DNA from: Candidatus Kerfeldbacteria bacterium CG15_BIG_FIL_POST_REV_8_21_14_020_45_12
Lineage (GTDB): Bacteria; Patescibacteriota; Patescibacteriia; UBA9570; XYC2-FULL-38-9
Reading direction: 5' to 3'
Assembly (NCBI GenBank): GCA_002781785.1
Contig: PFGC01000019.1
Location: forward strand, 1-33,429
DNA: 33,429 nt
Shown: positions 3,447 to 15,680 of the stretch, in pieces
How positions within the stretch are numbered: the first letter of the stretch is position 1
Layout: each line of letters begins with the position of its first letter
The notes under the pieces: generated by a model
What the model was told of the DNA's origin: nothing
What the model saw: the letters and a program-made list of their open reading frames with translations, nothing else
The model's database searches: none
Position numbers and translations under genes: made by a program

Positions 3447-4496
3447 ATGATCAAGAAGTTTTTTGGTTCACTATCGACTGATTTGGGCATAGACATTGGC
3501 ACTGCCAATACTTTAGTTTATGCTAAAGAGAAGGGCATTGTCATCAATGAGCCTTCGGTTGTTGCTATCAATACACGCAATGATCAAATCATTGCTGTGG
3601 GGCAAGACGCTAAGCAGATGATTGGAAAAACGCCGCCTCACATTATAGCAACAGAGCCTTTGGTAGATGGGGTGGTATCTGATTTTGAGGTAGCTGAAAA
3701 AATGCTGAAGCACTTTATAGATAAAGTGCACAGAGAAACATTTTCTGTATTTCCTCGTCCTCGGGTTGTTATTTCAATTCCTTTAGATATCACAGAGGTG
3801 GAACGGAAGGCGGTTGAAGACGCTGTGGTTAGCGCGGGCGCCCGTGAAGTTTTTTTGCTAGAGGAGCCGATGGCAGCAGCGGTTGGAGCTAGAGTTCCGA
3901 TAGAGGATTCAACCGGAAATATGATTGTTGATATTGGAGCCGGAACAACATCCATTGCTGTAATATCTCTTGGTGGAATTGTGGCTTCAAGATCCCTGCG
4001 CTCGGCTGGCAGTGAGCTCAACAAAGATATAATCAATTACGTCCGTGATCATTTTAATATTTTGTTAGGTGAGAAAACAGCCGAAGATGCCAAGATTTTC
4101 ATTGGGTCTGTGCATGAGAACAACGAGAGAATTGAAGCAAAGGTGCGTGGACGAGATATGATATCTGGACTCCCTAGGGAGATTATTATCACTAGTGATC
4201 ATCTACGTGAAGCGATGAATCGATCAATCCAAACAATTATTGATAATGTTAAGTTGGTTATTGAATCTACCCCACCAGAGCTTGTGGCTGATATTTACGA
4301 GAGGGGAATGTTGTTGTCTGGAGGAACTTCTCTACTAAGAGGTTTGGACAAGAGAATTTCTGAGGCAGTGTCAATTCCGGTGATGGTGGTTGATGACCCT
4401 CTGACTGTAGTGGTTCGTGGAACTGGAATTGTACTGGAAGACATTGAGGCAGCCTCTGATTTGTTCGTGGTTGCTGCTGATGGTTTATCGCAGTAA
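3447..4496 (+). CDS. mreB: Rod shape-determining actin homologue MreB
   Basis: The 349-residue protein shows the actin-fold signatures of MreB: the phosphate-1 loop LGIDIGTANTLVY (about residues 14-26), the EPSVVAI segment, the VEDAVVSAGAREVFLLEEPMAAA region, phosphate-2 IVDIGAGTTSIAVI and the adenosine motif LLSGGTSLLRGLD. MreB forms ATP-dependent filaments under the membrane that organise lateral wall synthesis. It is the first gene of an mreB-mreC-mreD-mrdA set transcribed together, so the cell probably grows by elongation. The upstream sequence TTAAATTTTCCT contains no Shine-Dalgarno. Confidence 0.98.
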   Translation: MIKKFFGSLSTDLGIDIGTANTLVYAKEKGIVINEPSVVAINTRNDQIIAVGQDAKQMIGKTPPHIIATEPLVDGVVSDFEVAEKMLKHFIDKVHRETFSVFPRPRVVISIPLDITEVERKAVEDAVVSAGAREVFLLEEPMAAAVGARVPIEDSTGNMIVDIGAGTTSIAVISLGGIVASRSLRSAGSELNKDIINYVRDHFNILLGEKTAEDAKIFIGSVHENNERIEAKVRGRDMISGLPREIIITSDHLREAMNRSIQTIIDNVKLVIESTPPELVADIYERGMLLSGGTSLLRGLDKRISEAVSIPVMVVDDPLTVVVRGTGIVLEDIEAASDLFVVAADGLSQ

Positions 4497-4502
4497 TCTG
4501 CT

Positions 4503-5324
4503 ATGAGCGGTAGATTAGAGAGGTTTCGATCCCGGATGCCACGCCTATGGATGGTGGTAGGTGGAATATTGATTTTAATTGGCCTGCACTATTCTGGATT
4601 GTTAAGACCGCTGGAAAATTTATCTCGATATGTCATTAATCCCGTAGCTGGCCTGATTTATCGGCAGTCGGCGGAAAATCTAACCGGTCCGTTGGATCTT
4701 GACAATATGACTCGAGAAGAGTTGCTTATTTACACCAAGGAGATCGAGAGTAATTTATATGATGCCTTAGTAGAGAAGGCTCACCTTCAAACACTAGTTG
4801 ATGAGACGCGATTGACGGAGGAGCAACTGAATTTCTTAAAGGGCAGATCTTTTCAGGCCGTTACAGCAAAAGTAGTGGGAAGAACCACTGACGATTTGTC
4901 GGAGTCTATTGTTGTTAACAGAGGTAAGAATAGTGGAGTTATTCCTGGGTTGGCAGTAATTGCTGGTAATGGCTTGTTAGTAGGCACCGTTGACTCTGTC
5001 GATGACAATAGTTCGACGGTGTTGCTAAGCACCAGCTTTAACTCATTGGTCAGTGCAGTAGTTCAGAACGAAGCGCAGAGTCCTGGTATGGTTTCAGGTG
5101 AGCATAACTTGTCTCTAACTATGGAATTTATTCCGCAGTTTGATGAATTAAAAGTAGGAGAAATGGTGCAAACCAGCGGTGCGGAATCAGGTGTGCCACA
5201 CGGTTTAGTGGTTGGACAAATTCAGGAGGTACATGAAGAGCCGGGTTCATTATTTAAAGAGGCTTCTTTGCGACCGTTATATGATCCGACTAAGCTTATC
5301 GTAGTTACGGTATTGCTGCCATAG
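4503..5324 (+). CDS. mreC: Cell shape-determining protein MreC
   Basis: The 273-residue protein has a short basic N-terminus, one transmembrane helix (about residues 16-33), a coiled-coil segment (about 68-110) and then the paired beta-barrel domain. The barrel region contains IVVNRGKNSGVIPGLAVIAGNGLLVGTVD, a hallmark of MreC. MreC sits outside the membrane as an antiparallel filament and activates the PBP2-RodA synthase. The gene starts 6 bases after mreB and ends 3 bases before mreD, so it is in the same operon. Its length is normal for the family. No Shine-Dalgarno is seen (AATCTGCT before ATG). Confidence 0.95.
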   Translation: MSGRLERFRSRMPRLWMVVGGILILIGLHYSGLLRPLENLSRYVINPVAGLIYRQSAENLTGPLDLDNMTREELLIYTKEIESNLYDALVEKAHLQTLVDETRLTEEQLNFLKGRSFQAVTAKVVGRTTDDLSESIVVNRGKNSGVIPGLAVIAGNGLLVGTVDSVDDNSSTVLLSTSFNSLVSAVVQNEAQSPGMVSGEHNLSLTMEFIPQFDELKVGEMVQTSGAESGVPHGLVVGQIQEVHEEPGSLFKEASLRPLYDPTKLIVVTVLLP

Positions 5325-5327
5325 ACT

Positions 5328-5864
5328 ATGCGTAGATTTTTTTTAATAATATTGTGGATTATAAGTGTAATCATAGTAGTTTCTCTTCAGCAGGGTTTCG
5401 TTAGGCAGTGGGGTAGCTTGTCAACATATATTCAACTAGATGTTTTAGCTGTAATTTTGCTAACTATTTTTTATCGTCCATGGACGGGACTAATAGTCTC
5501 TTTTGTGATTGGTAGTTGGATGGACCTTTCTAGTAGCTTGCCCTTTGGTGTTTACCTAGGCGCTATTAGCTTAGCGTCTTTTGCAGCATTGTTTTTGCGA
5601 GACCGGGTGTTGAAGCAAGATGCGGAGTATGCGGTTGTTTTACCAGCCATTATAAGCACGTGGGTATTTTGGGGAGGTGTTATTGGGTTTACCTGGATAG
5701 ATAGTAGTTTTTCAGCTACTTCGATCCCTGCAGCTTGGTACGAACTAAGCTTGAGAATGGCATTGTGGCAGTCACTTACCCATGGCATAGTTGCTGGTTT
5801 ATATTTTGTTGCTCATCGATTAGTGAGTAAAAGATTCGTCGGAATAAAATCCGCAGCATATTAG
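5328..5864 (+). CDS. mreD: Rod shape-determining membrane protein MreD
   Basis: This 178-residue, very hydrophobic protein has about five predicted membrane helices, beginning with residues 5-20. It includes the IFYRPWTGLIVSFVIGSWMD segment, with the Asp typical of MreD/ECF-S-like folds, and the DLSSSLPFGVYL motif. It lies between mreC and mrdA at spacings of 3 and 1 bases, which supports the assignment more firmly than its weakly conserved sequence does. MreD is an integral part of the elongasome. Confidence 0.88.
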   Translation: MRRFFLIILWIISVIIVVSLQQGFVRQWGSLSTYIQLDVLAVILLTIFYRPWTGLIVSFVIGSWMDLSSSLPFGVYLGAISLASFAALFLRDRVLKQDAEYAVVLPAIISTWVFWGGVIGFTWIDSSFSATSIPAAWYELSLRMALWQSLTHGIVAGLYFVAHRLVSKRFVGIKSAAY

Positions 5865-5865
5865 T

Positions 5866-7791
5866 ATGAAGGACCCTTTCGAACTATACGCTGACGCTAA
5901 TAAGCCAATTCGCTCCCAACGAGTTGGGGATATTATTGATGCCGTACCGCCAGAGCAGCCACTTGAGGGAGGTGAAAGAATGACAGGAGCAGCTAATGAC
6001 TTTCCATTAAGGAGACTGCTCGTAGTCGTTGCAGCGGTCTGCTTAGTTCTGGTTGTCCGAATATCATACTTGCAGCTTGTCAGAGGGTCTGCGTATCGAA
6101 GCATAGCCGAGGGAAACAGAATCCATTTAGATGTGACAAAATCCCTCCGTGGGGTTGTGTATGATCTTGATGGCAATTTATTGGTAAAAAATGTACCAGA
6201 CTTTCGTCTTAGAATTACTGCTCGTGAATTACCTAGGCGAACTGATGCAAAATATAAAGAGGCCTTAGTAGCCATTTCAGAGTATGGCCAAATAGACCAG
6301 GAGCAGCTTGGTCAAGAGTTAGAAAGATCACGCCTTAGTGGCCAGCCTGTTACAGTTAGAACCTTCATACCTTACAGCGAGGCTTTGGCCATTATGAGCG
6401 CAGTGCACAGAGTTCCCGGTGTCTCTATAGATGCGTATTACGCTAGAGAGTATTTGGCCGGGCCTGCGTTTTCGCACATCCTTGGATACACTGGTAAAAT
6501 TTCAGAGGTTGAGTATAAAGAATTGGCTGAGTCAGGTTACCGATTGGATGATACCGTTGGTAAAACAGGGGTAGAACTGTCGTACGAAAATTATCTCCGA
6601 GGACAAGATGGAGAAAGGAAGATTGAAGTCAACAACCGTGGACAAGAAACAGCGGTGGTTTCAGATAGTCCAGCTGTAGCAGGGGATAATCTTTATCTGA
6701 CAATTGACCAGGACCTTCAGGAGTCACTCTACGCCAAGCTACAAGAAGTTGTTGAGGCAGGAGATTTACCAGGCGCTTCAGCAGTTGTGATTGATCCTAG
6801 GTCTGGCGCTGTTAGAGCTTTGGTCACCTATCCATCATACGATGATAATTTGTTTGTTGGTGGCATTTCACAGGATGAGTACCAGAAGCTGACGGCCGAT
6901 GAGCGCAATCCATTGTTTAACAGAGCTATAACTGGAACGTATCCATCTGGATCCACTTTTAAGCCGGTAGTTGCAGCTGCAGCGCTTGAAGAGGGTGTAA
7001 TTACGGCAACCTCTACGGTTGAAAGTAATGGTGGAATTCAAATTGACCGATTCTTCTTTCCAGATTGGAAGCCAGGTGGTCACGGCACGACGAACGTTAC
7101 AAAGGCTTTGGCGGAATCTGTGAATACCTTTTTTTACTTGGCTGGTGGTGGTGATAATGAAACTACGTCGGGCCTTGGAGTAGAGCGTATAACTGATTAC
7201 GCTAAACGTTTTGGGTTGGCTAGTAGGTTAGGGATTGATTTGCCAGGAGAGAGTGATGGATTCTTGCCGTCTAAGGCATGGAAAGAGGAGTATAAAGATG
7301 AGCCGTGGTATATCGGCGATACCTATCATTTAGCCATCGGACAGGGTGACATCTTAGTCACTCCAATTCAGGTAGCGAGCTACACGGCAACTATTGCTAA
7401 TGGAGGAACCTTCTACGAACCTTATGTAGTAGAGCGAACAACTAATCAACTTGGTGAAACTGTTTACCAGCATGAACCAAAAATTCATAATAATCAGGTG
7501 GTAAGCCCTCATTCCATATCAATAGTTCAACAAGGCATGCGAGAGGCGGTAACCTATGGCAGCGCTCGTTCATTATTGTCGTTACCGGTAACCAGTGCTG
7601 GAAAAACTGGTACTGCTCAATTTGGAGATCCGAATAATGAGACACATTCATGGTTTACTGCCTTTGCGCCATATGAATCTCCAGAGCTTGCAATAACTGT
7701 TTTGGTTGAAGGTGGCGGTGGAGGCAATGACGCAGCTCTGCCAGCCGCGCGGGAGGCATTGCGTGAATATTTTGGATCAACAGCTCAGTGA
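5866..7791 (+). CDS. mrdA: Penicillin-binding protein 2 (elongation-specific transpeptidase)
   Basis: The 641-residue class B PBP has a cytoplasmic N-terminus of about 45 residues, a transmembrane helix (about 46-66), a dimerisation/pedestal domain and a transpeptidase domain. All three active-site motifs are intact: SxxK as Ser363-Thr-Phe-Lys366, SxN as Ser418-Val-Asn420, and KTG as Lys580-Thr-Gly582. PBP2 crosslinks peptidoglycan during lateral growth, together with RodA and MreBCD. A cytoplasmic tail of about 45 residues is longer than usual. It directly follows mreD (1 base) and ends with TGA at 7789-7791, immediately before the greA promoter. No rodA gene is present in this window. The family assignment is secure; PBP2 rather than PBP3 rests on the operon. 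Confidence 0.95.
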   Translation: MKDPFELYADANKPIRSQRVGDIIDAVPPEQPLEGGERMTGAANDFPLRRLLVVVAAVCLVLVVRISYLQLVRGSAYRSIAEGNRIHLDVTKSLRGVVYDLDGNLLVKNVPDFRLRITARELPRRTDAKYKEALVAISEYGQIDQEQLGQELERSRLSGQPVTVRTFIPYSEALAIMSAVHRVPGVSIDAYYAREYLAGPAFSHILGYTGKISEVEYKELAESGYRLDDTVGKTGVELSYENYLRGQDGERKIEVNNRGQETAVVSDSPAVAGDNLYLTIDQDLQESLYAKLQEVVEAGDLPGASAVVIDPRSGAVRALVTYPSYDDNLFVGGISQDEYQKLTADERNPLFNRAITGTYPSGSTFKPVVAAAALEEGVITATSTVESNGGIQIDRFFFPDWKPGGHGTTNVTKALAESVNTFFYLAGGGDNETTSGLGVERITDYAKRFGLASRLGIDLPGESDGFLPSKAWKEEYKDEPWYIGDTYHLAIGQGDILVTPIQVASYTATIANGGTFYEPYVVERTTNQLGETVYQHEPKIHNNQVVSPHSISIVQQGMREAVTYGSARSLLSLPVTSAGKTGTAQFGDPNNETHSWFTAFAPYESPELAITVLVEGGGGGNDAALPAAREALREYFGSTAQ

Positions 7792-7847: not shown

Positions 7848-8315
7848 ATGACAGACAAGAAGTTTTATGTAACGGAAGAGGGGTTAAAGCAGCTAGAGCT
7901 GGAGCTTAAAGAGCTTAAGACGGTTAAGCGAAGGGAATTGGCTGAGAGAATTCAGGAGGCCAAGGAACTGGGAGATTTATCAGAAAATGCCGAGTACATC
8001 GAGGCTAAGGAGGAGCAAGGCTTTGTAGAGGCGCAGATTCTTGAATTAGAGCAGAGAATTAAAAACTGTGCGATTATTTCGCATAAAAATAATACCGAGA
8101 CAGTTGAGGTTGGTTCAACTATAACTGTAAAGAATTCAGATAGTGAGGAAATGACTTTCACTATCGTGGGGTCTTCTGAGTCAAGTCCAGCAGATAAGTT
8201 AATTTCTAATGAATCTCCTTTGGGCAGAGCCTTCATCGGTCAAAACGTAGGAGAGGAGGTTACAGTTGAAACGCCCGGTGGACAGGTTAAGTATAGAATC
8301 TTGAGCGTAGAATAA
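7848..8315 (+). CDS. greA: Transcription elongation factor GreA
   Basis: The 155-residue protein has the N-terminal coiled coil that enters the RNA polymerase secondary channel. It includes the conserved tip and flank GDLSENAEYIEAKEEQGFVEA (about residues 42-62). The C-terminal FKBP-like domain contains SPLGRAFIGQNVGEEVTVETPGG. GreA stimulates transcript cleavage to rescue backtracked polymerase. The two acidic tip residues (Asp, Glu) are present. It is the first gene behind a strong promoter and is followed after 21 bases by lysS, a pairing also seen in other bacteria. Confidence 0.97.
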   Translation: MTDKKFYVTEEGLKQLELELKELKTVKRRELAERIQEAKELGDLSENAEYIEAKEEQGFVEAQILELEQRIKNCAIISHKNNTETVEVGSTITVKNSDSEEMTFTIVGSSESSPADKLISNESPLGRAFIGQNVGEEVTVETPGGQVKYRILSVE

Positions 8316-8336: not shown

Positions 8337-10445
8337 ATGAGTGAGAATAGTTCTGAATATGATATTCGTCGTGAGAAGGTAGCGAAGCTGCGCTTATTAG
8401 GGCTAGACCCATACCCAGCGACAACTAAGCGAACTATTTCGGTCCAAGGTTTTTTGGATGTGTTTGATGATTTGGAAGGGGAGAAGAAAACAGAATTTAT
8501 TTCTGGTCGAGTTAGATTACAAAGGGCTCATGGTAAATTGATCTTTATTACTATCGAGGATGCCTCTGGTCGCTTGCAAATTGTTTTAACTAACCAGGAT
8601 CTTTCTGAAGAGGATTTCTCCTTGGTGGTCGATGTAGTTGATGTTGGTGATATTGTAGAGGTTTCTGGGACGCCGTTTGTAACAAAAAAAGGTGAGCGGT
8701 CAATGCTAGCCAAGTCAGTTAGTATTCTGACCAAATCCGTTAGGCCATTGCCAGACAAGTGGAAGGGGATGCAAGATGATGAGGCTCGATACCGCAGGCG
8801 CTATGTGGATATGATTATGAGACCTGAACTGCGGGAGATGTTTCGAATGAAATCAATTTTCTGGCAGTCGATGCGACAATTTTTAGTGACTGAAGGTTTT
8901 TTAGAGGTGGAAACTCCGGTACTTGAAAATACTCCAGGAGGAGCTGACGCTGAGCCATTTGTGACTCATCATAAGGCATTGGATTTGGATCTGTATTTGC
9001 GTATATCTATGGGAGAGCTTTGGCAGAAACGGTTGATGGTAGGCGGTTTTGAAAAAACGTTTGAGATCGGACGACAATTTCGCAATGAGGGTTTAAGCCC
9101 CGAACATTTACAGGATTACACTCAGATGGAGTTTTACTGGTCTTTTGCGGATTACGAAATGGGTATGATTTTGGTAGAGAGAATGTATAAATATGTTGTA
9201 CAACAAACCTTCGGTAAGTTGGAATTTTCGATTAGAGGATTTGATATTGACCTAAATCAATCGTGGGGTCGGATTGACTACTGTGAGACAATTCTTGAGG
9301 CAACCGGCGTTGATGTAACTAGTGCTAGTGATGCAGAACTACAGGCGGCTGCTGAGAAATGTGGTGTCAACGTTTCCGAAATTAGGGGTAGAGGTAAACT
9401 GATTGATGCAATATGGAAGCAGTTGAGAAAGCAAATAGCAGGTCCTGTATTTTTAGTTAATCACCCTGTAGAGGTGTCACCCTTGGCTAAGCGCCACGCT
9501 GGAAGGTTAGACGTGGTTGAGAGGTTCCAGGTAATTTTAGCGGGATCTGAGGTAGGAAATGGCTATTCAGAGCTTAATGATCCAGCTGAACAGCACGAGC
9601 GCTTTTTAGACCAAGCTAAGCTGCGAGAGGCGGGCGATGGTGAGGCACAGATGCATGACGAAGAATTTGTTGAAGCGTTGGAGTTTGGTATGCCGCCAAC
9701 CTGTGGTTTTGGGGTAAGCGAAAGACTGTTTTCTTTTTTGATGGATAAGCCAATTAAGGAGTGTGTGATGTTTCCACTATTGAGACCAAAGCTGAGCGAT
9801 CAGTCAGTACAGACGTCTCCTGATTTAGTGGTTAATTCTGTAGAAGTTAAGTCTGTTGACGACACGACTTTGTCTAATTTTGACTCTGGTATTACTCGAG
9901 CAGAGGCTGAGAAGCTGGTTTTTAGTGAGGTGATTGACGAAGGGTTACGTCGTCACATGTTGGCTACTGAAAGTATTATGGTGGCTCTTGGTAAACATTT
10001 TGGAGCTAGTAGCCCAGAGGTGTGGGGAATCGCTGGTTTATTGCACGATGTTGATTATGAGAAGTGTGCCCTGGAAGAGCATAGCTTGGTGGGGGCTAAG
10101 ATGTTGGAGGAAAGAGGCGTTCACAAAGACGTGGTTGACGCAGTCCGTGAGCATAATTACATGCATAAAATTGAACCGAAGACACTGATGTCAAAAACTC
10201 TGATGTGTTTGGAGCAATTAACTGGGTTGATAATCGCTTGTGCGCTGGTGCGGCCGGATAAGAGTCTTGGGTCTGTAAAAGCCAGTAGTGTGCGTAAGAA
10301 GTTGAAGGACAAGTCTTTTGCTAGAGGAGTTGATCGAGAAATGGCGGCAAAATCAGAAGAGTTAATTGGATTACCGTTGGAGCAGGCGATTGAGATATGT
10401 TTAGCTGCTATGCAGCAAGATGCTGATAAATTAGGCTTAGCTTAG
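8337..10445 (+). CDS. lysS: Lysyl-tRNA synthetase (class II) fused to a C-terminal HD phosphohydrolase domain
   Basis: The 702-residue protein is about 200 residues longer than ordinary LysRS. Residues 1 to about 485 are a complete class II LysRS: an OB-fold anticodon-binding domain (about 50-145), motif 2 (FEIGRQFRNEGLSPEHLQDY, followed by a TQMEFY segment) and motif 3 near 465-484 (GFGVSERLF through FPLLRPK). After a polar linker, residues about 530-702 form an HD-superfamily domain resembling the stand-alone predicted hydrolases of COG2316. Candidate metal ligands are His540, His570-Asp571 (LLHDVDYE), His582 and His606-Asn607. The join is a single uninterrupted frame. LysRS charges tRNA-Lys and is a known producer of Ap4A; the HD activity is unknown. 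It lies in an operon with greA and serS and has no Shine-Dalgarno. Confidence 0.93.
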   Translation: MSENSSEYDIRREKVAKLRLLGLDPYPATTKRTISVQGFLDVFDDLEGEKKTEFISGRVRLQRAHGKLIFITIEDASGRLQIVLTNQDLSEEDFSLVVDVVDVGDIVEVSGTPFVTKKGERSMLAKSVSILTKSVRPLPDKWKGMQDDEARYRRRYVDMIMRPELREMFRMKSIFWQSMRQFLVTEGFLEVETPVLENTPGGADAEPFVTHHKALDLDLYLRISMGELWQKRLMVGGFEKTFEIGRQFRNEGLSPEHLQDYTQMEFYWSFADYEMGMILVERMYKYVVQQTFGKLEFSIRGFDIDLNQSWGRIDYCETILEATGVDVTSASDAELQAAAEKCGVNVSEIRGRGKLIDAIWKQLRKQIAGPVFLVNHPVEVSPLAKRHAGRLDVVERFQVILAGSEVGNGYSELNDPAEQHERFLDQAKLREAGDGEAQMHDEEFVEALEFGMPPTCGFGVSERLFSFLMDKPIKECVMFPLLRPKLSDQSVQTSPDLVVNSVEVKSVDDTTLSNFDSGITRAEAEKLVFSEVIDEGLRRHMLATESIMVALGKHFGASSPEVWGIAGLLHDVDYEKCALEEHSLVGAKMLEERGVHKDVVDAVREHNYMHKIEPKTLMSKTLMCLEQLTGLIIACALVRPDKSLGSVKASSVRKKLKDKSFARGVDREMAAKSEELIGLPLEQAIEICLAAMQQDADKLGLA

Positions 10446-10450
10446 ATTCT

Positions 10451-11740
10451 ATGTTGGACATGCAATTTATAAGGGATAACGCCGAGGCGGTCGCTGAGAA
10501 CGCTAAATTGCGGAATATGCCGGTTAATGTTCAAGTTTTACTTGAGTTAGATGAGCGCTATAGAAACCATCTACAGATTGCAGATGCTTTGCGCGCACAG
10601 AGGAATGATAATGCGGAGCGTTTGAATAAAATTCAGGACAAGTCCTCAATGGAAGCTCAGGAGATTATAGCTCTGGGAAAAGGTCTTAAGACTAAGCTTG
10701 CTGAGGTAGAGGCAGAGTTGGCCGAGATTAATAGTGAGTTAACTCCGGCTAAGTTGTCAGTACCAAACATGACACACCCGGGAGTTCCAGTTGGTAGTGA
10801 TGATGCTGGAAATGGTCAAATTGCTCAGCATAGTGAGCCGACTCGTTTTGAGTTTGAACCAAAGGATCACGTGGCCTTGGGTCAGGAGCTAGATATTTTG
10901 GATTTTGATCGTGGATCAGCTGTAGCGGGTGCCGGTTTTTATTTTGTGAAGGGAGCCGCGGCTTTATTGGAGATGGCCCTGGTAAACTATGCCATGGAGG
11001 TTTGTCGGTCTGAGGGGTTTTCTCCAATGATAACTCCTGATTTGGCTTATCAGGAAATACTGGAGGGAACTGGTTATAATCCAAGAGGTGACGAAACGCA
11101 AATTTATAGTATTGAGGGAACTGATTTGTCCTTAATTGCGACTTCAGAAATTGCGTTAGCTGGGTATTATAAGGATCACACCTTTGCGGCTGGTGAATTG
11201 GATGAGCCAAAACGGATAGTTGCTGTATCTCATTGTTTTAGAACTGAGGCCGGTTCATATGGTCGAGAGTCACGGGGACTTTATCGAGTGCATCAGTTTA
11301 CCAAAGTTGAAATGTTCATTTTTTGTCAGCCTAAGGATTCGGATAAAATGCACGATGAAATTCTTAGAGTAGAGCGAAAAATAATGGACGGTTTAGAATT
11401 ACCTTATCGGGTAGTTGATTGTTGTACTGGAGATTTAGGGGGCTCGGCCTATCGAAAATACGACATCGAGGCCTGGATGCCATTTAAGAATGATTGGGGT
11501 GAGGTAACATCAACCTCAAATTGCACAGATTTTCAGGCACGCCGTTTGAATACCAAGTATGTTACCGATAGTGGCAAGAGGGAATTGGTACACACTCTAA
11601 ATGGAACCGCTGTGGTATCGTCTCGTGTACCGCTGGCAATTATGGAAAACTATCAGCAAGCGGATGGATCTATTAAAATTCCGACCGTGTTGCATCCTTA
11701 CATGCAAGGGGTAACGGAAATTAAAAAAGAGGCAAAGTAG
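10451..11740 (+). CDS. serS: Seryl-tRNA synthetase
   Basis: The 429-residue protein matches SerRS throughout. It starts with MLDMQFIRDNAEAV, continues with the long antiparallel coiled-coil tRNA-binding arm (about residues 30-100), and has class II motif 2 (FRTEAGSYGRESRGLYRVHQ, then FTKVEMF) and the C-terminal ENYQQADGSIKIPTVLHPYM. Motif 3 is slightly unusual (NGTAVVSSRVPLAIMENYQ; most homologues have NGSGLAVGRT), but the class II arginine is retained. It charges tRNA-Ser. It begins 5 bases after lysS, so it shares the greA promoter. The TAG stop is one base from the stop of the convergent FemX-like gene, with no terminator between them. Confidence 0.97.
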   Translation: MLDMQFIRDNAEAVAENAKLRNMPVNVQVLLELDERYRNHLQIADALRAQRNDNAERLNKIQDKSSMEAQEIIALGKGLKTKLAEVEAELAEINSELTPAKLSVPNMTHPGVPVGSDDAGNGQIAQHSEPTRFEFEPKDHVALGQELDILDFDRGSAVAGAGFYFVKGAAALLEMALVNYAMEVCRSEGFSPMITPDLAYQEILEGTGYNPRGDETQIYSIEGTDLSLIATSEIALAGYYKDHTFAAGELDEPKRIVAVSHCFRTEAGSYGRESRGLYRVHQFTKVEMFIFCQPKDSDKMHDEILRVERKIMDGLELPYRVVDCCTGDLGGSAYRKYDIEAWMPFKNDWGEVTSTSNCTDFQARRLNTKYVTDSGKRELVHTLNGTAVVSSRVPLAIMENYQQADGSIKIPTVLHPYMQGVTEIKKEAK

Positions 11741-11741
11741 T

Positions 11742-12788
11742 TTATTGTCCGCGCTTTAAACGCCTAACTGTTTCTATGGTCCAGGTAAATGGATAAGTAG
11801 AACTAAGGGGTAGGTCATGACAGTGGAGGATATCAAATTGGCTTCCGCCAAAGCCTCTTTTAAAGCGACTGATACCTATCCATGGGTGTTGTCTTTTTAA
11901 GAGGCGTGACTTCTCTTTGTTTTCAGGGACAACTCCCCAAAAATTGTAAGTTTTGCAATTGCGCTTTTTAGCCTCTTTGATAGCTTCCCACTGGAGGAGA
12001 TAGCTGGCTGGAATTTTATTGTAGTCGGAGCGAGAAGCGCCGTGATGGTAGGATCCAATGTCACCATAGTACATCATGATGGCTGCCGATATTGGAATAT
12101 CTTGGTACCAGGCAATGAAGACTCTAGCTACATCACTTTCGCGAAAGGCCTCAACTTGAGCCCTGAAGTAATCGTCCTTGTAAGGGGTAAATTTATGTCT
12201 CTCAACGGTTTGTTGGTGAATATCTATGAATATATCAACTGCTTCAGGTGTGTTCGTCTGTTCAATCCTCACTCCGTCTCGCTCAGCTCGTCTAATAAGA
12301 TTGCGCATGGTCTTGCGCATACCTTTCAGCACCTCTTCTTCAGGTGATGAAATATCGAGGAGCCAAAGATTCTCGGCCAATAGGTGGATTGGTGCAGGTC
12401 TCCAACCAGCTCCGTGATACAGCTGACGGTTTTGTGTGGAGTCGATAATGAAGGGAGATGATCGAACAAAATCTAGGTCGTTGTCCTTGCCAATAGATTT
12501 TAGATGTCGGGTGATTTCTGGAAGCGCTTTCCAGGCAGAGGCGGTTAGTACTGGGCCGTATGGCAAAAAGAGATAATTACCGCGTCTAGCGTGAACGACG
12601 ATGGCTAAAGCTAGTCCAACCATGTCGCCTGAGTCGTCGTCGTAAAATGCTAGCGTCAGCGTCTGTTCACCAAGGCTGGCGTGGAGTTTTTGCATTTCCC
12701 AAGCCTGCAGAAATGGAGGTGTGGATCTGTTTAGTAAAAAAGCTTGCCAGTCTGCTTGAGAGGGGTTGTGATCGACTCGAATATTCAT
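11742..12788 (-). CDS. FemX/FemAB-like aminoacyltransferase (peptidoglycan interpeptide bridge)
   Basis: The 348-residue protein has the tandem GNAT fold typical of FemX/FemAB. Signatures are the N-terminal PPFLQAWEMQKLH (family form: FLQSWEWGEF), the central WLLDISSPEEEVLKGMRKTMR with RNLIRRAERDGV, the second-GNAT FIAWYQDIPISAAIMMYYGD, and YNFWGVVPENKEKSR. The terminal GISRFKRGFGG is also diagnostic. These enzymes move an amino acid from aminoacyl-tRNA onto the stem-peptide lysine of lipid II or UDP-MurNAc-pentapeptide on the inner face of the membrane. It is the last gene of a four-gene operon and overlaps the DegT gene by 4 bp (ATGA). Which amino acid it adds cannot be read from the sequence. 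Confidence 0.88.
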   Translation of the reverse strand: MNIRVDHNPSQADWQAFLLNRSTPPFLQAWEMQKLHASLGEQTLTLAFYDDDSGDMVGLALAIVVHARRGNYLFLPYGPVLTASAWKALPEITRHLKSIGKDNDLDFVRSSPFIIDSTQNRQLYHGAGWRPAPIHLLAENLWLLDISSPEEEVLKGMRKTMRNLIRRAERDGVRIEQTNTPEAVDIFIDIHQQTVERHKFTPYKDDYFRAQVEAFRESDVARVFIAWYQDIPISAAIMMYYGDIGSYHHGASRSDYNKIPASYLLQWEAIKEAKKRNCKTYNFWGVVPENKEKSRLLKRQHPWIGISRFKRGFGGSQFDILHCHDLPLSSTYPFTWTIETVRRLKRGQ

Positions 12789-14038
12789 GAAGCTGCCTGA
12801 TTTATAAAATTGATGACTTGCTGGGCCGCGGTGGGTGAGGTAAGTGGATTGGTCGGTAGATTAACAATGCGGGTTGCTAGTCGTTCTGCTGCTGGACATG
12901 AACCATCGATGTAGCCTATGTCTGAGTGGTTTGCGCTGCAGGGGATGACTATATCTGTGTACCAATCGCCCAGCAGTATACCCTGTAAGCGGCCTTTTTT
13001 CAACAGTTCCGTCTGGTTTTTAACTTCTATGCTGTAACGAAGATAGAGCGGTTTTGAGTTAGGTGGAATTTGCTGTGACGGGTGTTTAATATTGGCCCGA
13101 TACATTTTTGCAATGGAGTGGCGATGCTCTAGGTTTTTTGGTAACTGTTGGTACTGTTGGATGGCTAGATGTGCAATGGCATTGGGCAGCCGATAAACTT
13201 GTGCTGGAGCCTGGCCGGCCTTTTCTTGTGTGCTTAAAACATCTGGAAGTAATCTAAGCTTGCGTCCTACAGCGATTATAACTTTACCCACGTTAACTAC
13301 GTAATATAGGCGCTTAGCCACACTAAAAATGACAGGGTGCAGCAGTCGTTGTTTTATCCAAAAAAGACTGGGTAGTGGGAGTTTAGGCTCAAGGTTGCTT
13401 AGGTGTTTTTGTAGATCTTTTCGAAAGGCTATAGCCATACCGCCAGAGACACTGGAAATAACTTTATCACGACCGAAGGAAAAGATAGCAGCATCGCCAA
13501 AACTTCCAATTGGCTGTGAATTGACACTGACTCCTAATGAGTGGGCACAATCTTCAATCAGTGTGATACTGTGATCTTGGCAAATTTTTTGTATAGAGAG
13601 GATGTCAGCTGGTACGCCGAATGTATGTTGAACAATTACTGCGGTAATTCTGTGATTTTTTGAAAGGGTGGCTTTGAGGATTTCCGGACTCAGGTTGTAG
13701 GTAGAGTCAATATCAAGAAACCTAGGTGTGCCTCCAGCCGCACGGATGGCGTTTGGTACAACAATACAGGTAAAGGCTTGGGTGACAACCTCGTCACCTG
13801 GTTTTAAGTTGAGCCCCTCAAGTACTAAGCGCAGGGCCGATCTACCGCTGTCTACGGCGAGGGCAGTAGACCCTGGATAATCTCTTTTAAAACTATTCTC
13901 TAGTTGGACAATGTGAGGACCTTTTTTCCAGTACCGCCATAGCCAAGGAGTTATCAAATATCGCAAGGCTAGCCGTATGTCCTGCTTTGAAGCATTTGGC
14001 GAGAGGTGAGGTGAAATTGGAGATTTGAATAGAGGCAT
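12785..14038 (-). CDS. DegT/DnrJ/EryC1/StrS family PLP-dependent aminotransferase
   Basis: From the ATG at 14038 the product has 417 residues. An upstream in-frame start at 14095 would lie inside the MurF-like gene, so the start just after the MurF stop (TAA, 14042-14040) is preferred. It has the fold type I pattern of sugar or polyketide aminotransferases: VDSGRSALRLVLEGLNLKPG, DEVVTQAFTCIVVPNAIRAA, IEDCAHSLGV and the Schiff-base lysine Lys192 in FSFGRDKVISSVSGG. Family members usually transaminate nucleotide-activated keto-sugars. Here the gene lies between a Mur ligase and a FemX-like gene in a coupled operon, so a role in envelope precursor synthesis is likely. The substrate is unknown. 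Confidence 0.88.
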   Translation of the reverse strand: MPLFKSPISPHLSPNASKQDIRLALRYLITPWLWRYWKKGPHIVQLENSFKRDYPGSTALAVDSGRSALRLVLEGLNLKPGDEVVTQAFTCIVVPNAIRAAGGTPRFLDIDSTYNLSPEILKATLSKNHRITAVIVQHTFGVPADILSIQKICQDHSITLIEDCAHSLGVSVNSQPIGSFGDAAIFSFGRDKVISSVSGGMAIAFRKDLQKHLSNLEPKLPLPSLFWIKQRLLHPVIFSVAKRLYYVVNVGKVIIAVGRKLRLLPDVLSTQEKAGQAPAQVYRLPNAIAHLAIQQYQQLPKNLEHRHSIAKMYRANIKHPSQQIPPNSKPLYLRYSIEVKNQTELLKKGRLQGILLGDWYTDIVIPCSANHSDIGYIDGSCPAAERLATRIVNLPTNPLTSPTAAQQVINFINQAAS

Positions 14039-14039
14039 A

Positions 14040-15680
14040 TTAACTAATGTCGGGAACGATGAAATTTCTGATCTTAGTTTGAACTCTACCTTCAATCAGC
14101 ACAATATCATCAGTGGTGATATCGCTAAGTTTATTTTCTATTAAACGGTCAATTCGTTCGTCTACAATAATTTGTTCCGCGGACATACCGGCGGCCATGG
14201 CTGATTCTGAGAGCGGGCGACTAAAGTCACGCTTGGTAATTATCAACAAATCGGCTACCTCGGCTATGCGCTGTCCGACAGAACGATGATGTTTATCGCT
14301 GTCTGTACCTAGCTCCAACATTCCTGGTGTAATGACAATTTTCCTTTTATCTGTAAAAAGTGCGAGATAGTCTAGGGCTGCTAAGAAGCCATCCGGGTTA
14401 GCGTTATAACTATCGTCTATTACAGAGTAGTGATGACGCCCGTTTTTAAGTTGCATCGTGCCGGCAGGTGCACTTAAGCGATCAAGGCCCGCTACTATTT
14501 CCTCAATCGGCATTGCTAAATGGTTTGCTACAGCGACGGCAGCTAGTACAGCCGGCAAAGCTTGAACACCGTTTAAACTAACTTGAGCACGAGTGCGTTG
14601 CAGGCCGATATGTAGAGTAAATTTAATCTGATGTGGGATTACGACTATATCGGTGGCGTAGATGTGGGCGTTATCAAGAACTGAGAAATAATGCACGGGA
14701 GCGGGACTATATTGGGCTATTTCGCGACAGGCCTGAAGGTCACGATTAAGTATGGCTAAACCTGATGCTGGTAAGCATTGTAAAAGCTCGGCTTTAGTTT
14801 TCTTAATTATCTCGAGCGATCCAAACAGAGATAGGTGTTGTCCGCTGACCGCTGTGATTACTCCAATGATTGGCGAGACAAGATTACAGATGGCAGCTAT
14901 TTCACCGGGGCGATAGGCTCCCATTTCTACAATTAAAATTTCGTGGTCTTCTTTAAGGGACGATAAAATCGTTTGAGCCACTCCGATGTCGACGTTTATA
15001 TTTTTAGGTGTTGCTAAAACCTTCCAGCGCTTTTCTAATATAATCTTAAGAAAATGCTTCGTCGAGGTTTTTCCAAAACTGCCGGTAATACCAATGACAA
15101 TTGGGTTTACCTTTTGAAGTTTGATTTTAGCTTGGTGGAGAGTGGATTTTTTTTGTGAATTAACAAGTGGTCTAAGTAATTCAATCCAGATAGTTACAAT
15201 CAGCGGAACGGCGGCAAGTAGTAGTGACAACACTCCGAAATGACTGGTTGGGATTGAGGTCTCAGGGAGAGCTAACCGGATCAAAACGTAGAGCACAGCC
15301 AGGGTCGTGAATGAGGCAAGGGAAGTGATTATGGTCTTAGTAGTCCAGAGAGGCCTAGCCGGTCTTCGCACAACGCGAGCGCACTCAAGGGCAATTAAAA
15401 CACACCAGGGTAGAAAAATTATGGCGATCAGATTTGAGTCACCCCAGGCCTGAGCTGTTAGTAAGTATACTCCAGCGACGATCTCGATAAAGATCCAGGG
15501 AGATAAAATGAAAAGTTTACCGCTACGTGTAGAGAAGTAGTCCTTTAATCTGTCCCAACGATATTCTTTAATTTGCCAGACCGATGTCCAGCGCAAAATA
15601 GCTCCGGCTACGGGTAAAATAAATAATACATGTAGCAAGATGTCCAGTGGCCAGTAGTAGTCTATGAAAAGTTGATTCAT
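14040..15680 (-). CDS. MurF-type Mur ligase with an N-terminal multispan membrane domain
   Basis: The 546-residue protein has about five predicted membrane helices in the first 190 residues. An ATP-dependent Mur ligase core follows, with P-loop GITGSFGKTSTK near residue 200, LIVEMGAYRPGEI, the central-domain AVSGQHLSLFGS and the C-terminal MurF signature VIDDSYNANPDGFLAALDYL. MurF adds D-Ala-D-Ala to UDP-MurNAc-tripeptide. The usual N-terminal UDP-MurNAc-binding domain of MurF is absent and a membrane region takes its place, so the substrate might be lipid-linked, or the enzyme might not be MurF in the strict sense. It overlaps the hydrolase gene by 4 bp (ATGA) and is one base from the DegT gene. 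I am sure of a Mur ligase and fairly sure of the MurF type. Confidence 0.88.
   Translation of the reverse strand: MNQLFIDYYWPLDILLHVLFILPVAGAILRWTSVWQIKEYRWDRLKDYFSTRSGKLFILSPWIFIEIVAGVYLLTAQAWGDSNLIAIIFLPWCVLIALECARVVRRPARPLWTTKTIITSLASFTTLAVLYVLIRLALPETSIPTSHFGVLSLLLAAVPLIVTIWIELLRPLVNSQKKSTLHQAKIKLQKVNPIVIGITGSFGKTSTKHFLKIILEKRWKVLATPKNINVDIGVAQTILSSLKEDHEILIVEMGAYRPGEIAAICNLVSPIIGVITAVSGQHLSLFGSLEIIKKTKAELLQCLPASGLAILNRDLQACREIAQYSPAPVHYFSVLDNAHIYATDIVVIPHQIKFTLHIGLQRTRAQVSLNGVQALPAVLAAVAVANHLAMPIEEIVAGLDRLSAPAGTMQLKNGRHHYSVIDDSYNANPDGFLAALDYLALFTDKRKIVITPGMLELGTDSDKHHRSVGQRIAEVADLLIITKRDFSRPLSESAMAAGMSAEQIIVDERIDRLIENKLSDITTDDIVLIEGRVQTKIRNFIVPDIS

Follow-up and report, generated by a model that had tools for sequence, protein, structure and literature searches.

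AlaX-like, B3/4 and EMAPII-type domains, found at the termini of aminoacyl-tRNA synthetases (aaRS), bind tRNA or clear mischarged tRNA. Among HD proteins, RNase Y (HDIG) is a membrane-anchored endoribonuclease, while YqeK (COG1713, TIGR00488) is a symmetrical Ap4A hydrolase of the HD fold with an H..HD..H..H..D/E set of two-metal ligands; LysRS is an established source of Ap4A. In mycoplasmas YqeK is fused to NadD and proofreads or repairs the side products of this enzyme (PMC9426524). The known HD domain in a synthetase, that of the heterotetrameric GlyRS beta, has no catalytic doublet (PMC8464048) and touches the acceptor stem of the tRNA (PMC9908026).

Here we describe a LysRS-HD protein encoded in a stretch of 33,429 nucleotides (hereafter the window). 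It is an aaRS with an appended domain, and a literature search found no published description of this fusion. Like NadD-YqeK, it joins a six-ligand HD hydrolase to an adenylating enzyme, the two being neighbouring genes elsewhere, but in NadD-YqeK the partner is NadD and the HD domain is YqeK proper. The HD of LysRS shares with YqeK the fold and the ligand pattern; it differs in scoring under the curated YqeK model, in a C-terminal half of its own with the signature LVxPxKK...FAxxxxR, and in coexisting with YqeK in Firmicutes. RNase Y is the closest match between profiles, although it is much longer, carries other domains and has a curated model under which the LysRS HD family falls. GlyRS beta also holds an HD inside a synthetase and is the best Foldseek match, but its doublet is lost and sequence similarity is weak. 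Finally, synthetases with AlaX-like, B3/4 or EMAPII-type modules similarly carry an accessory domain at a terminus; these modules are however deacylases or RNA binders, whereas the HD of LysRS has a phosphohydrolase fold.

A complete LysRS continues in frame into an HD domain

The open reading frame at 8337-10445 (plus strand) runs uninterrupted from an ATG at 8337 to a stop at 10445 and encodes 702 aa in three parts: a complete class II LysRS (residues 1-485; 8337..9791, plus strand), a disordered linker (486-517; 9792..9887, plus strand) and an HD domain (518-702; 9888..10442, plus strand). The LysRS part comprises an OB anticodon domain (55-131) and a catalytic core (148-481). TIGR00499, the model of bacterial class II LysRS, matches residues 6-485 (E 5.7e-143; 477 bits against a curated cut-off of 427.6). 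Together with the single open frame, this bears out the initial annotation, which read a full class II LysRS to about residue 485 running in frame into an HD domain. Class II motifs 2 and 3 with their catalytic arginines and the lysine-binding ELND are present (FRNEG at 248-252, E265, GNGYSELND, R463); these active-site motifs are conserved across 35 fused copies and intact in comparison with solved LysRS structures. The genome of 1.2 Mb has this one LysRS only, its two other matches being more distant class II synthetase relatives (23-28% identity). GC content is unchanged across the LysRS-HD junction.

The AlphaFold model has a mean pLDDT of 90.7 at full length and 97.7 for the HD alone, with a pTM of 0.68, and both domains are confident. 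Linker pLDDT is low, falling below 50 at residues 488-506, which are predicted disordered. In most other fusions the linkers are 14-73 residues long and unconserved; two exceed this range, and in each of them another domain intervenes. Since the linkers are disordered and unconserved, we favour a tether over a rigid composite site: as modelled, such flexibility would imply a common local pool and no composite active site.

The metal ligands of the HD domain are conserved

The HD domain matched PF01966 over its cut-off at residues 539-615 (E 7.3e-9) and TIGR00277 over its curated cut-off (E 2.3e-9); these scores and the high pLDDT of the HD part ruled out a chance match. The superfamily metal motif H...HD...D/E is present. 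In an alignment of 163 sequences we located six ligands, all on the plus strand: H540 (9954..9956), a histidine in 38 of 38 fused copies; the doublet H570-D571 (10044..10049), ligands 2 and 3, invariant; H582 (10080..10082), kept in 37 of 38 fused copies and Q in one; H606 (10152..10154), invariant; and E626 (10212..10214), always E or D and matched in alignment to the last Asp of YqeK. The initial annotation had named the first five of these correctly and missed the sixth, E626; it had also placed the HD domain rightly, with a start at 520 that lies nearer residue ~518. D573, G630, F661 and R667 are invariant as well. Two-metal HD enzymes, YqeK among them, show the same six-ligand pattern (PMC8177086).

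All six ligands are complete in 37/38 fused and 121/125 unfused sequences (158/163 overall). Because the fused copies retain them almost without exception, the HD domain is very probably a catalytically active, metal-dependent phosphohydrolase, as far as residue conservation can indicate. The same conservation bears on a contrary view, in which the domain would be a non-catalytic module for the tRNA acceptor stem or for oligomerisation, like the HD of GlyRS beta. GlyRS beta is indeed the top fold match, and its HD clamps the acceptor stem (PMC9908026). Nevertheless, the HD doublet is gone from GlyRS beta whereas the full ligand set is kept here, and profile similarity between the two is weak (13% probability); we regard a non-catalytic role as very improbable.

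The HD domain differs from YqeK

In profile-profile comparisons the HD domain was closest to RNase Y (E 9.5e-14), then YqeK (4e-11) and, far behind, GlyRS beta (0.002). With hhalign, the GlyRS beta HD (TIGR00211) reached only the 13% given above against the HD family, which is no profile match; the genome of the window has no glyS match. The best PDB match by profile was the YqeK structure 8jja (E 7.5e-6), with the metal ligands aligned, while a single-sequence PDB search and a PHROGs search with the HD of the window gave no match. A Foldseek search placed GlyRS beta first (E 4e-3, TM ~0.5), followed by PgpH and YqeK, all weak; small alarmone hydrolases are also among the fold similarities. 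The NCBIfam relatives include YqeK, NadD-YqeK and two families in which an HD accompanies a tRNA Cm56 methyltransferase or an NTP-transferase. A literature search for COG2316 found no paper naming it.

Two identities were rejected. The cut-off of TIGR00488 (YqeK) was not reached, 7 of 21 HD family members being weak matches (best 2.7e-8). The RNase Y model gave E 0.13 for the HD of the window, below its curated cut-off, and no KH domain was found in the protein. Thus the profile, fold and NCBIfam comparisons indicate a distinct HD subfamily, other than YqeK.

These results bear on the proposal of the initial annotation that the HD part may break down Ap4A, or clear mis-formed lysyl-adenylate, produced by its LysRS partner. 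Extended to Ap3A, this would be a built-in alarmone control or adenylate proofreading comparable to YqeK fused to NadD. Much of its basis stands: the fusion to a classic Ap4A-making synthetase, an intact metal site whose ligands align with those of YqeK, and YqeK structures as the top PDB matches by sequence. Profile searches found YqeK and ApaH missing from the genome of the window and its near relatives. NadD-YqeK, where YqeK proofreads the products of its partner (PMC9426524), is a precedent, and both this fusion and the NTP-transferase-HD family are among the NCBIfam relatives. Other parts did not hold. The domain is not YqeK by the curated model, the RNase Y profile is nearer, and the residue three after the HD doublet is aromatic where YqeK has its ADP-binding Lys62. 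In Firmicutes with a stand-alone HD, a true YqeK over cut-off occurred in 6/6 tested, so that the HD does not merely stand in for an absent Ap4A hydrolase. Moreover, HIT-family proteins, a possible Ap4A alternative, are present in the genome, many relatives are without both HD and YqeK, and one same-family relative has lost the HD. Ap4A hydrolysis is possible and one of two serious options, but not the better supported, and we lean against it.

The fusion recurs across Patescibacteria

HD searches covered 57 relatives and 380 genomes of the phylum, and the surrounding DNA was read in 146 genomes. The HD domain is fused to the LysRS C-terminus in 38 of these 146, from 19 families, and in 34 the next gene after lysS, on the same strand, is an HD gene; the remaining HD genes are near lysS in 7 and apart in 67. 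The search for fusion architectures in Patescibacteria called for at the outset thus returned many examples. The fusion is also found in relatives at ~60% identity, and the lysS-HD arrangement in matches titled Jacksonbacteria, Kerfeldbacteria and Portnoybacteria. An assembly join, the artefact feared in the initial annotation, is ruled out by this recurrence without need of reads.

In the phylum sample of gene neighbourhoods, lysS is fused to the HD or at most three genes away in 73/128 genomes. Counting serS and greA too, one of the three lies within three genes in 83/128, which leaves 45/128 HD-bearing genomes with none of them in that range. Given ~1,000 genes per genome, chance alone would put an arbitrary gene beside lysS in about one genome in several hundred. 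On a FastTree tree of the HD, 18 changes of fusion state are required, of which starred branches force at least 10, FastTree support values being of the least strict kind; the link was thus joined and severed many times. Altogether, the relatives show a genuine and ancient LysRS-HD pairing that has been re-formed again and again.

The domain can also be lost. In G003, a 92% complete genome of the same family, LysRS stops at 490 aa, no HD match was found, and no serS ORF lies directly downstream of lysS; the HD is therefore dispensable. In G002 the contig ends inside the linker. At locus L234 a fused HD is followed shortly downstream by another HD that stands alone. Beyond the phylum, in Gemmatimonadota, Chloroflexota, Bacillota, Acidobacteriota and further groups, relatives of the HD occur as stand-alone genes, and none had lysS beside it at the loci examined. 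These loci and the 45 unlinked genomes indicate that HD chemistry is not specific to LysRS.

Gene neighbourhood

The gene order in the window is greA-lysS(HD)-serS. By profile match and neighbourhood comparison, greA (7848..8315, plus strand) is the conserved operon neighbour upstream and serS (10451..11740, plus strand) the one downstream. Upstream of greA-lysS, mreB, mreC and a PBP2-like transpeptidase gene occupy 3447-7791 (plus strand); a gene reading as the same transpeptidase precedes greA-lysS at three other loci (L235, L236 and L237). Genes of the FemAB family, a DegT aminotransferase and a Mur ligase (11742-15680, minus strand) converge on serS. As FemX-type enzymes use aminoacyl-tRNA, the locus combines genes of the cell wall with those of synthetases.

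In several Firmicutes (three loci) the stand-alone HD gene is near genes that appear, by eye, to encode an esterase, RNase R and SmpB. In the phylum, a gene likewise named by eye as an rdgB-like nucleotide pyrophosphatase often adjoins the HD gene. This frequent neighbour, together with the spread of stand-alone HD across many phyla in varied company and the fold resemblance to PgpH and small alarmone hydrolases, is consistent with a hydrolase of general house-cleaning function that acts on some other nucleotide (non-canonical NTP, cyclic dinucleotide or ppGpp-like) and came to travel with lysS through its place in the operon, with no LysRS-specific role. Such a function explains neither why it is lysS in particular that the HD has so often been fused to, or come to adjoin again, nor the tRNA domains found at the same C-terminus; we consider it unlikely.

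Other domains share the LysRS C-terminus

Among long LysRS ORFs of the phylum we observed LysRS-DUF2000 at five loci, and LysRS-tRNA_bind, LysRS-tRNA_bind-B3/4, LysRS-B3/4 and LysRS-DUF2000-AlaX-like at one each, the AlaX-like domain consisting of tRNA-synt_2c and tRNA_SAD. The HD enters such combinations as LysRS-B3/4-HD, LysRS-DUF2000-HD, LysRS-HD-DUF2000 and, at L234, LysRS-HD-B3/4-DUF2000. DUF2000 is absent from the genome of the window; compared with solved structures it gave just a chance-level match to 2gax (E 0.82), and a literature search combining it with tRNA found no paper. Since the HD shares the C-terminus with tRNA-handling domains, a role in quality control of the tRNA cycle is favoured, and this company, read from domain architecture, would speak for tRNA quality control no less than for the alarmone.

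A bolder generalization is that the LysRS C-terminus of Patescibacteria is a modular docking site, repeatedly fused to stand-alone tRNA quality-control enzymes (AlaX-like, B3/4, tRNA_bind, DUF2000, HD), with the HD an active tRNA phosphohydrolase, the first catalytic HD tethered to an aaRS and a still-active cousin of the GlyRS beta HD, which is catalytically dead. We found no description of modular docking at the LysRS C-terminus in the literature, and offer the idea tentatively, as one that we hold to be somewhat doubtful.

Discussion

Our preferred reading, to which we give a probability of roughly 0.4, is that the only LysRS of the cell carries a tethered, catalytically intact phosphohydrolase of the two-metal HD type that serves quality control in the LysRS/tRNA cycle, with tRNA ends on the one side and Ap4A or adenylates on the other as candidate substrates. 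The flexible linker would keep the HD close to LysRS, where it could meet a phosphoester product. It would most likely act at the tRNA rather than on the charging reaction itself, for instance on an end that is faulty or bears a cyclic phosphate, or on a phosphodiester of bound RNA. Counting for this tRNA side are RNase Y as the nearest profile, the HD relative in the tRNA Cm56 methyltransferase, the GlyRS beta fold match and the RNase R and SmpB neighbours; the weakness of the fold matches and the lost doublet of GlyRS beta count against it, as do the HD genes that lie apart from lysS and the loss of the domain in G003.

Through its pairing with LysRS, a widespread HD family gains a concrete functional partner, and with it a short list of candidate substrates. 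If the substrate is Ap4A, a single enzyme would both produce its alarmone and break it down. Were the substrate tRNA, the protein would show how very small genomes hold quality control of tRNA on the synthetase.
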